This document shows, one piece after another, positions 41,060 through 44,354 of a stretch of 64,000 nt of DNA. Origin of the DNA: Natronomonas salina (GTDB lineage Archaea; Halobacteriota; Halobacteria; Halobacteriales; Haloarculaceae); NCBI RefSeq assembly GCF_013391105.1, contig NZ_CP058335.1, positions 806,001 through 870,000 on the forward strand. Reading direction: 5' to 3'. Position 1 is the stretch's first letter; every line of letters starts with the position of its first letter. The notes beneath the pieces were generated by a model. That model saw only the letters and a program-made list of their open reading frames with translations. It was not told the origin of the DNA and did not search any database. The position numbers and the translations under genes were made by a program.

Positions 41060-44014
41060 TCAGTCGTCCGACTGGCCCCGGCTACTGGGGCCCTGTCCGT
41101 TCCCGTTGTTGCGGCCGCGATTTCGGGACGCATCCGGGGACACATCGATATCGGTAGTCGTAGGGATGGCTGGGTCGTCGGCGACGTTGTTCACGGCGTC
41201 GGTCACGCGGCTGTCGCCAACGCGCAGACCCGTCTCGAGAGTCGCGGCCAGCTCGTTGAGATATCCCGTCGCCGCCGACGGGGCCGACCCGGACCCGAGG
41301 AGGACGACGGCCCCGCCGTCGTCACGGAACGAACGGACGGCCGCCGCCTCTTCGGCGGTGAACTCGCTAACCGGCGTCGTAACGATCAGGGCTCGGGCCC
41401 CGGAGAGCCGATCGAGCGTGACGTCGTTGATCTGCTCGAAGGTCGTGCCGCGCCCTTCGAGGTGCCGCTGGTAGTACGCGGCGTCCTCGTTGGAGAGTGC
41501 GTACTCGACGCCGGCCTGTCCGTGGCCGCCGTCGATGAAGACGATGTCCTCACGGTCATCGTCAGCTAGGTCCTCGATCACATCGCTCAGGAAGGGGAAG
41601 TTAGCGAACCCGGACGTGTCGGCCTCGAATCCTTCGAGCCGTTCGTAGGACTCGTCGATGAGTAGCGACCCGCCGACGGCGACGCCCGCCTCCGAGTCCA
41701 CACCGAACAACGGGAGCTGCTTCCGTGACGACCGCCCGTCACGGGCCGCCTCGGGCTCGGAGTACACAGCGACCGTCTGGGGGCGTGGGCGACCCTGGGC
41801 ATGGTCGAGGACGGCCGCGTCCGGGAAGAACACCTCATCCAGCGCCCCCTCACGGTACGGCGAGGCCGCACTGATATCGCTCTCTGTCCAGATCCCCGTC
41901 CCGTCCTGCCGGGCCGCCCACTCCACAGCCCAGAACTCGTCGTGTCTGGCCAACGTCGAGCCGTAGACGCGACCGTACCCCGATTCGATTAACTCACGAT
42001 TGTACAGTGTCTCGCGCTGCCCGTCGCCGTCGACGTCGTACTCGGCGTAGGCGAGAAGCCGCGTCGGATCACGGAGCGGCTCGTTCTCGTCGAAGTACAC
42101 CGTGACACGCTCACCCTCGAGGCGGTTACGGGCGAACTCCGTTCCGCGGTCGGCCCACTCGACGAGATAGTCCGTCGTGCGAGCGTCCGGGTCGTCGTCG
42201 ATTCCATCGCGCATCTCGAACAGCGAATCCGGACCGGCGAAGTTCGCCGTCGTGGGAACGAAGTCGCTGCCGGCGTTGTTCTCCTCGTCCTCGACTTGAT
42301 CGTCGTTGAACCGGAACCCGAGGTCGAGGCCGTCGGCGACCGCGTTCAGGTTCGCCGTCTCGTCGTAATTGCTGAAGTCCGCCTGGTCGTGCAGGATGAC
42401 GGCGCCGCCGTCGGCGACGAAGCCGTCGAGCGCGTCAAGTTCGTCAGTCGTGAACGTGTCGGTTGGCGAGGTGATGACCACCGCGTCCGCCGACGAGAGA
42501 TCGCCAGCCAGGTTGGTCGTAGGCTCGAGCGTGTAGCCGTTGTCCTCAGCGTACGTCTCGAAGGTACTGAACTCGTCGAGCGTGTAATACTGCCCGTGGC
42601 CCTCGTCCCACAGGACCGTGTCGCCGTCGACGAGGTGATCGTAGAGGTTCAGCAGGAACTCCTCGTTGTCCGCGGTCGTGTCGAAATCGGCGTCGACGAA
42701 CGGCGCGCCGATCCCGGCGACTGTCCCGTCGATCGCCACCAGCGGGATATCGGTGTCGTCAGGGTAGGTGACCGCGTCATCGCCATCGTCCGTATCGGTG
42801 TTGGTCGCGGTCGGTTCGGCGTAGACGGCGACGAGCGAGTCATCCGTCAGCGGGTCCATCTCAGCGCTGAGTAGGCTGGCGGTCGAGTCGAACACCAACT
42901 CGTCCACCGCGTCCGGCTCGCCGATATCGTAGGCCAGGCCCTCCCACTCTTCGGGACGCTCCGCCGAGGCGGCGACGCTCGCACTCTCCGGTGTGTCGAC
43001 TCCGAGGACCCGAACGGTCGCCGTGTAGTCCGTCTCCAGCCCGACATCCGCAGCGTCGAACACCACGTCGAACGTGTCCCCGTCGGCCACGCTGTCGATC
43101 GCAACGTCGTACTCCCGGCCGCGCCGCAGATCGATCGTGATTCCCGGCCGGTCCTCGAACAGCGGGAAGTCGTCGTTGAAGTTCGACGTCAGCGGGAGAT
43201 AATCGATACCGACGTTGTTCTCCGTGTCCCCGACTTCGCCGTCATTGAACCGGAATCCGAGTCCCAGACCGTCAGCGACCGCGTTCAGGTTCGCCGTCTC
43301 GTCGTAATTGCTGAAGTCCGACTGGTCGTGCAGGACCACGAGCCCGCCGTCGGCGACGAAGCTGTCGAGCGCGTCGAGTTCGTCGGTCGTGAACGCATCG
43401 CCCGGAGCGGTGATCACGACCGCATCTGCCGCAGACAGCTCCGTCGTCAGGTCAGATGTCGACTCGACTGTGTAGCCGTTGTCCTCGGCGTACGCCTCGA
43501 AGTTCCGGAAGCTGTCGAGCGTGTAGAACTGCCCGTGGCCCTCATCCCACAGGACGGTTCCGCCAGCCGTGTACTCGTCGTACAGGTTCAGGAGGAATTC
43601 CTCGTTGCCGAGGTCACCGAGGGGGTCCTCGCCCTCGAGCTCCGGGACGAGATCGCCATCGTTGACCAGCATCGCTCCGACGCCGACGACGGCGCCGTCC
43701 CCGCGTTCCTCCACGCCGACGAGCGGTACGTCAACGTCGTCGGGGTAGTTCACCGCGTCGCCGTCATCGTCACGGTCCCTGACCGTCGCGGTCGGTTCGG
43801 CGTAGACGGCGACGAGCGAGCTATCCGTCAGCGGTTCGCCATCCGCCGCCAGTAACCCGCTCGTCGACGAGAACAACATCTGCCCGATCTGTCCCTCCTG
43901 GGTAGCCGCGACCCTCGTCGCCAGTCCCGCTGGAAGTGACTCTGTGCTCGCTGTTCCAACGGTTCCGGCAGCCGCTACACCCGCCACTGTACTCATGAAT
44001 CGACGTCGACGCAT
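41060..44014 (-). CDS. Exported thermonuclease-type protein with three DUF4350/GATase-like domains, one inserted inside the nuclease domain
   Basis: 984 residues with a twin-arginine start (MRRRRFMSTVAGVAAAGTVG). Domain 1 (about 42-305) has VLWDEGHGQFYTLDSFRNFE and FTTDELDALDSFVADGGLVV. The first half of a staphylococcal-nuclease fold follows (about 310-370: SVADGDTFDVVFDAADVG, VRVLGVDTPESA). A second copy of domain 1 (about 371-605: VLWDEGHGQYYTLDEFSTFE) comes next. Then the nuclease resumes (about 612-710: RGTEFARNRLEGERVTVYFD, RDPTRLLAYAEYDVDGDG, YNRELIESGYGRVYG). A third, more divergent domain (about 720-960: DGGHGQAGVEYALSNEDAAY) closes it. Copies 1 and 2 are near-identical in places at DNA level, so the insertion is recent. 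The GTG one codon upstream is an alternative start. Confidence 0.85.
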   Translation of the reverse strand: MRRRRFMSTVAGVAAAGTVGTASTESLPAGLATRVAATQEGQIGQMLFSSTSGLLAADGEPLTDSSLVAVYAEPTATVRDRDDDGDAVNYPDDVDVPLVGVEERGDGAVVGVGAMLVNDGDLVPELEGEDPLGDLGNEEFLLNLYDEYTAGGTVLWDEGHGQFYTLDSFRNFEAYAEDNGYTVESTSDLTTELSAADAVVITAPGDAFTTDELDALDSFVADGGLVVLHDQSDFSNYDETANLNAVADGLGLGFRFNDGEVGDTENNVGIDYLPLTSNFNDDFPLFEDRPGITIDLRRGREYDVAIDSVADGDTFDVVFDAADVGLETDYTATVRVLGVDTPESASVAASAERPEEWEGLAYDIGEPDAVDELVFDSTASLLSAEMDPLTDDSLVAVYAEPTATNTDTDDGDDAVTYPDDTDIPLVAIDGTVAGIGAPFVDADFDTTADNEEFLLNLYDHLVDGDTVLWDEGHGQYYTLDEFSTFETYAEDNGYTLEPTTNLAGDLSSADAVVITSPTDTFTTDELDALDGFVADGGAVILHDQADFSNYDETANLNAVADGLDLGFRFNDDQVEDEENNAGSDFVPTTANFAGPDSLFEMRDGIDDDPDARTTDYLVEWADRGTEFARNRLEGERVTVYFDENEPLRDPTRLLAYAEYDVDGDGQRETLYNRELIESGYGRVYGSTLARHDEFWAVEWAARQDGTGIWTESDISAASPYREGALDEVFFPDAAVLDHAQGRPRPQTVAVYSEPEAARDGRSSRKQLPLFGVDSEAGVAVGGSLLIDESYERLEGFEADTSGFANFPFLSDVIEDLADDDREDIVFIDGGHGQAGVEYALSNEDAAYYQRHLEGRGTTFEQINDVTLDRLSGARALIVTTPVSEFTAEEAAAVRSFRDDGGAVVLLGSGSAPSAATGYLNELAATLETGLRVGDSRVTDAVNNVADDPAIPTTTDIDVSPDASRNRGRNNGNGQGPSSRGQSDD
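42336..42381. repeat. Second copy of a 46-bp exact internal repeat
   Basis: Identical to 43275-43320, 939 bases away, inside the inserted domain copy of the thermonuclease-type gene. Confidence 0.7.
43275..43320. repeat. First copy of a 46-bp exact internal repeat
   Basis: Encodes part of FSNYDETANLNAVADGL in domain 1. Identical to 42336-42381, marking a recent intragenic duplication. Confidence 0.7.
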
Positions 44015-44354
44015 CACAGGGTGCCACGGAAGTCCCAGAATGAAAAATCCTAATTTCCAGATACCTTCATCGGTACAAATACGTAGAGAGAGAGAGATCG
44101 AGATGGGTCTTGCAGGCCACGACGGATCGACGACATGTGTGAGGGTAGCCTGATCGCCACTGAATCAGAAGGGCAGTTGGCAGGATTCGATACCACCTCA
44201 GGAGGACCGATCGTCGGTTTAGAAGATACGATCCGTATCGGCCTGGGTTGCCGAGAGTGCTGGCGTCCTGACGGCTCTGCTCGATCTGTCCGGGATACCG
44301 ATTGAACAGAGACCGGGGGGTAGAAGATTCCTCGCCGAGTAGCTGTGGTCGACG
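44015..44354. other. Low-GC intergenic stretch
   Basis: About 340 bases upstream of the thermonuclease-type gene, noticeably AT-rich near 44040-44100. It probably holds that gene's promoter (minus-strand TTAGGATTTTT near 44045-44060). An open frame on the minus strand (44050-44358) has no protein-like character. Confidence 0.4.

Follow-up and report, generated by a model that had tools for sequence, protein, structure and literature searches.

A copy of its own flanking GIFT domain lies inside the nuclease domain of a putatively secreted haloarchaeal protein

The gene at positions 41060 to 44014 of the window (the whole stretch of 64,000 nucleotides of Natronomonas salina that was analysed) raises the question of whether a staphylococcal-type nuclease domain (SNase) that is cut in two by a copy of the domain flanking it can still be a single working enzyme, and of how such an arrangement came about. 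We consider, with a probability of about 75%, that the product is a secreted haloarchaeal SNase-type nuclease, from a family whose usual order is GIFT-SNase-GIFT, which carries a nested GIFT binding module and is putatively Ca2+-dependent. The features of the gene are listed below, using a layout code in which A and C denote the flanking GIFT domains, n and c the two halves of the SNase, and A' the inserted GIFT domain.

41060..44014, minus strand: whole gene, 984 residues, Tat-exported GIFT - SNase (N half) - GIFT - SNase (C half) - GIFT protein
43895..44014, minus strand: twin-arginine (Tat) type signal region, residues 1-40, MRRRRFMSTVAGVAAAG
43139..43894, minus strand: GIFT/DUF4350 copy 1 (A), residues 41-292, DEGHGQ at 157-162 (Pfam and alignment)
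42938..43138, minus strand: SNase N-terminal half (n), residues 293-359, with DGDT 311-314, R335, DTPE 340-343 and EEWEG 355-359
42908..42937, minus strand: entry linker, residues 360-369 (pLDDT 62 in block 361-370)
42200..42907, minus strand: inserted GIFT/DUF4350 copy 2 (A'), residues 370-605, DEGHGQ at 470-475 (Pfam and alignment)
42179..42199, minus strand: exit linker, residues 606-612 (pLDDT 64 in block 601-610)
41879..42178, minus strand: SNase C-terminal half (c), residues 613-712, with R652 (Pfam SNase 610-710)
41135..41836, minus strand: C-terminal GIFT domain (C), residues 727-960, DGGHGQ at 828-833 (Pfam and alignment)

The open reading frame (41060-44017, minus strand) starts with an ATG at 44014 and encodes 984 amino acids, with an N-terminus of the twin-arginine signal type. 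The MRRR/MQRR start is kept across the aligned homologues, and residues 1-37 have a pLDDT below 50 in the AlphaFold2 model. Concerning the domains, Pfam recognized three DUF4350/GIFT stretches and one SNase. The DUF4350 profile reached 72.8 bits over the three stretches (curated cut-off 30.4), IFT52_GIFT 56.4 bits (curated cut-off 27.2) and SNase (PF00565) 28.6 bits (cut-off 21), or 28.9 bits in the whole-genome search; the ABC_transp_aux profile was also matched. Three DUF4350-type domains, each with a (D)EGHGQ or DGGHGQ motif, had been proposed in a preliminary description of this DNA, and both the profiles and the motif positions agree with it. Copies 1 and 2 share 66% protein identity, while the C-terminal GIFT domain shares only 31-35% with either of them.

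To locate the interruption, the protein was aligned with 15 unsplit homologues. The break in the SNase falls after EEWEG, which ends at residue 359, and before TTDYLVEWA, which starts at residue 613; thus, the EEWEG stretch was assigned to the first SNase half, and residues 360-612 are occupied by GIFT copy 2. This is in line with the preliminary description, which had the nuclease core cut after the DTPE region and copy 2 lying in the gap. The unsplit proteins read DTPE...ER.EEWEGIE-xxYLxEWAxxATxFA without interruption, whereas in the split ones DTPE...ERPEEWEGL is followed by a GIFT copy and then by xYLxEWAxxATxFA. The insertion point is identical in every split lineage examined and falls at the end of the loop that connects the strand bearing the catalytic glutamate (DTPE) with helix 1, which spans residues 609-632 in the AlphaFold2 model. 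Moreover, the two halves match complementary parts of SNase models, namely positions 45-81 of NucI (residues 302-345) and positions 57-149 of EcnA (residues 612-710). The match to the calcium-activated nuclease EcnA (NF047969) amounts to 62 bits for the window protein and 105 bits for an unsplit homologue, both below the equivalog cut-off of 180 bits.

The AlphaFold2 model, built from an alignment of 55 homologues that included unsplit ones, has a mean pLDDT of 87.3 and a pTM of 0.74. Compared with S. aureus nuclease (VIA-align), residues 299-710 of the model align over 130 of 135 residues at 1.7 A (Z 18.1), and the model of the unsplit protein from Halostella pelagica over 131 residues at 1.8 A (Z 19.3, residues 279-432). 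Both SNase halves are therefore predicted to combine into one complete barrel-plus-helices fold. The preliminary description had left this point to structure prediction, and the model contains one SNase fold over 299-710 and no separate incomplete folds. The equivalents of D21, R35, D40, T41, E43 and R87 are D311, R335, D340, T341, E343 and R652. Among the nine active-site columns checked, eight are kept throughout the 18 split proteins, and the remaining one, the threonine of DGDT, is kept in 17 of them; the catalytic residues are also kept in the unsplit proteins (58/58). Furthermore, dN/dS was 0.09-0.37 in every segment across six pairs of split relatives, with 0.19-0.25 for the nested GIFT domain, and, judged from these substitution ratios, both SNase halves and the inserted GIFT domain are under purifying selection.

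Regarding the GIFT domains, the N-terminal GIFT domain of IFT52 (5fmr, 5fms) matched the window model at 1.5-2.7 A over 79-97 columns, with probability 1.00 and E-values of about 0.01-0.03. This gives moderate support to an IFT52-like fold in the model, since the query was the whole multi-domain model. The best Foldseek match was an IMPa peptidase, which was dropped on account of an rmsd of about 20 A over the multi-domain model.

Homologues were found in 139 of the 391 haloarchaeal genomes searched. An alignment-based scan of a collection of genomes from 84,980 species gave 75 loci, all of them haloarchaeal where the record title names the organism. In 393 genomes of the phylum, the distant relatives among the matches listed align over the SNase part only (approximately model positions 263-440); hence, on sequence grounds, the GIFT-SNase-GIFT sandwich looks haloarchaeal and a contiguous SNase looks ancestral. 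Seven neighbours of the window gene had no match in the 75 loci, so no conserved gene neighbourhood was found there. A local HMM survey sorted 95 proteins into 18 split and 77 unsplit, A-n-c-C being the commonest layout. The layout A-n-A'-c-C is present in the window, Halovenus carboxidivorans, Halosimplex aquaticum, two Haloarchaeobius species and several MAGs. The protein of Halorubellus salinus GX3 (L056, 5980-9621) has four GIFT domains in the layout A-n-A'-A''-c-C, and a tandem pair of them occupies this insertion site within the SNase. Split and unsplit paralogues are found together in some genomes, such as MAG QS_8_69_26 (L035 split, L061 unsplit). In four inserts, three of Haloarchaeobius type and one other (L008, L010, L043, L044), LD-NGQ or YD-NGQ replaces DEGHGQ, and the nuclease residues are intact.

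Other variants were seen in the family. Four proteins (L106 from Natrinema pallidum, L110, L111 and L114) carry additional GIFT copies upstream of the nuclease and none inside, and the L111/L021 gene is broken over two frames. Six Halorubrum loci (L068, L073, L079, L084, L087 and L107) have a separate GIFT-domain ORF directly upstream of an unsplit GIFT-SNase-GIFT ORF. In L102 and L103 the C-terminal half of the SNase is apparently interrupted by about 20-40 residues, and the C-termini of L036, L050 and L056 bear variable add-ons (dockerin-like, lamin-tail and PPC domains).

In a tree of the nuclease plus the C-terminal domain, the split proteins do not form one clade: three changes are needed, and a single change was found in 0 of 200 bootstrap trees. 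A single origin of the split layout was rejected by the AU test on this alignment (p 0.001; p 0.023 without long rows), but one clade of inserts was not rejected on the GIFT-copy tree (p 0.062). Repeated insertion is compatible with the trees, and so is one insertion with later recombination or loss, because of that second value. A stronger version seems to us rather improbable: the neighbouring GIFT domain would have entered the loop ahead of SNase helix 1 more than once at the same point, with up to two copies in Halorubellus salinus, and the nested copy would gate the active site.

The age of the insertion was approached through the resemblance between copies 1 and 2, which share two exact repeats:

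42336..42381, no strand: 46-bp exact repeat, copy in A'
43275..43320, no strand: 46-bp exact repeat, copy in A, 939 from the A' copy
42804..42839, no strand: 36-bp exact repeat, copy in A'
43785..43820, no strand: 36-bp exact repeat, copy in A, 981 from the A' copy

The longest exact repeat in 200 codon shuffles of the gene was at most 19 bp. The 46-bp match had been noticed in the preliminary description and taken as a sign of recent insertion; the match is there, together with the 36-bp one, but the date does not hold. In the GIFT-domain tree, the first GIFT copy of the window protein clusters with the first copies from four other species (100/100), and its second copy with the second copies from three of those four (100/97). 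Each copy groups with its own counterparts, which makes the insertion older than those species. On the other hand, in the tract FTTDELDALD...DETANLNAVADGL the two copies of the window protein are 0.82-0.97 identical to each other and 0.60-0.88 identical to orthologues, whereas over most of the gene the order is the opposite. A permutation test on long identical runs gave p below 1e-4 with all sites and p = 0.01 with third positions only, and two relatives also have significant identical runs, elsewhere in the GIFT domain. The simplest reading of these patterns would be local gene conversion between old copies, with a contribution of amino-acid constraint in view of the weaker signal at third positions.

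Several other explanations of the split gene have to be weighed. The exact repeats could be expected from an assembly artefact or a recent tandem duplication, which we regard as scarcely credible: the window genome is a single contig, the protein identity between the copies is only 66%, the copy-1 and copy-2 clades are separate, and the same layout appears in independent assemblies of other genera. Assembly duplication, which the preliminary description had offered as a possible refutation, is ruled out by this recurrence, which includes the complete chromosome of Halosimplex aquaticum. The nested architecture is real, old and conserved. It could also be imagined that nothing but a dead relic is left of the split SNase, in a protein that now serves only for binding. 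The interruption itself is the sole sign of this in the window protein, and there is a parallel in Tudor-SN (SND1/TSN), where a Tudor domain is inserted in SN5, whose metal-binding residues are degenerate (PMC5900569). Nevertheless, the near-invariant active-site columns of the split proteins, the purifying selection on both nuclease halves and the complete SNase fold of the model make a dead remnant very unlikely.

What the insert does is a more delicate matter. It may be a regulator, such that a ligand on the nested GIFT domain would open or close the active site of the nuclease, an idea suggested by its position beside the catalytic E343, in the loop that runs from DTPE to helix 1. The purifying selection on the insert, the lower model confidence of the linkers on both sides and the retention in split proteins of the family-specific ER.EEWEG stretch ahead of it are consistent with such a role. 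However, the degenerate DEGHGQ of the four inserts mentioned above, next to intact nuclease residues, indicates that the motif is dispensable at least in those inserts, and we hold regulation to be possible but doubtful. The insert might instead be a neutral elaboration, a duplication tolerated at a permissive loop without a new function. Other members of the family differ in how many GIFT domains they have, and Natrinema, Natronosalvus and Halorubrum carry extra ones outside the nuclease, which suggests copy-number drift; yet the insert has been kept over long divergence with the low dN/dS given above, and it is present in several lineages, with two at the site in Halorubellus salinus. Neutrality is conceivable on this evidence, though we would not favour it.

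In our preferred reading, that of a secreted nuclease with a nested binding module, a copy of the N-terminal GIFT domain would have entered the nuclease at domain boundaries, in the loop that leads from the DTPE strand to helix 1, and gene conversion would keep copies 1 and 2 locally alike. The enzyme would probably be an active Ca2+-dependent extracellular nuclease, as its conserved residues and predicted fold suggest. The GIFT domains could bind a surface glycan, a polymer or a partner protein, and the nested one would be an extra binding module held near the active-site loop on two short linkers that look flexible in the model. Sugar binding has been proposed for GIFT domains (PMC7226087), and for a DUF4350 family, membership in a complex for secretion or membrane remodelling has been predicted (PMC5898192). 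By analogy, the protein may degrade environmental DNA as a nutrient source, mainly of phosphorus, or in biofilms. The link with DNA feeding comes from HVO_1477, an SNase-containing lipoprotein of different architecture that is needed for the growth of Haloferax volcanii on extracellular DNA (PMC3929857).

Compared with staphylococcal nuclease/thermonuclease (PF00565; S. aureus Nuc, B. subtilis YokF, YncB and YhcR), the window protein shares the predicted SNase fold and the catalytic residues, but about 250 extra residues (GIFT and linkers) separate its DTPE strand from helix 1, and its SNase is flanked by GIFT domains on both sides. The unsplit haloarchaeal GIFT-SNase-GIFT proteins belong to the same family, with about 45-52% identity and the same order of the other domains; unlike the window protein, they have a contiguous SNase without the inserted copy. 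They are annotated as 'thermonuclease family', 'PKD domain-containing' or 'lamin tail domain-containing' proteins. A natural SNase-fold domain that holds another domain is already known from Tudor-SN, although in the window protein the insert is a copy of its own flanking domain, it lies in the only SNase of the protein and the catalytic residues are intact. The GIFT proteins (IFT52 N-terminal domain, GldG, Wbp1/OST48, DUF4350 of arCOG01314) share with it the profile and the IFT52 structural match, but those described are scaffold, transport, secretion or glycosylation components, whereas here a GIFT domain is nested in a nuclease. No account of a GIFT-nested SNase architecture was found in a literature search (DUF4350 with thermonuclease, EcnA, SNase loop).

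The gene offers a clear example from nature of a catalytic domain that seems to work and is interrupted by a duplicate of the domain next to it. Since unsplit, one-insert and two-insert relatives are all at hand for comparison, it is a useful system for studying the origin of domain insertions and their possible effect on the control of an enzyme. It also points to a little-described family of haloarchaeal secreted nucleases that, by analogy, probably act on extracellular DNA. HVO_1477 is likewise a secreted haloarchaeal SNase, a putative lipoprotein of 327 amino acids (PMC3929857) described with a lamin-tail domain (PMC5118699). Its descriptions contain no GIFT-nested nuclease, and the window protein, in turn, has no LTD match in Pfam and lacks cysteine altogether, the one of a lipobox included. 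The genome of the window also encodes a second SNase gene (L001, C1:3471347-3471721), with SNase and lamin-tail domains in a frame of 444 amino acids, like HVO_1477.
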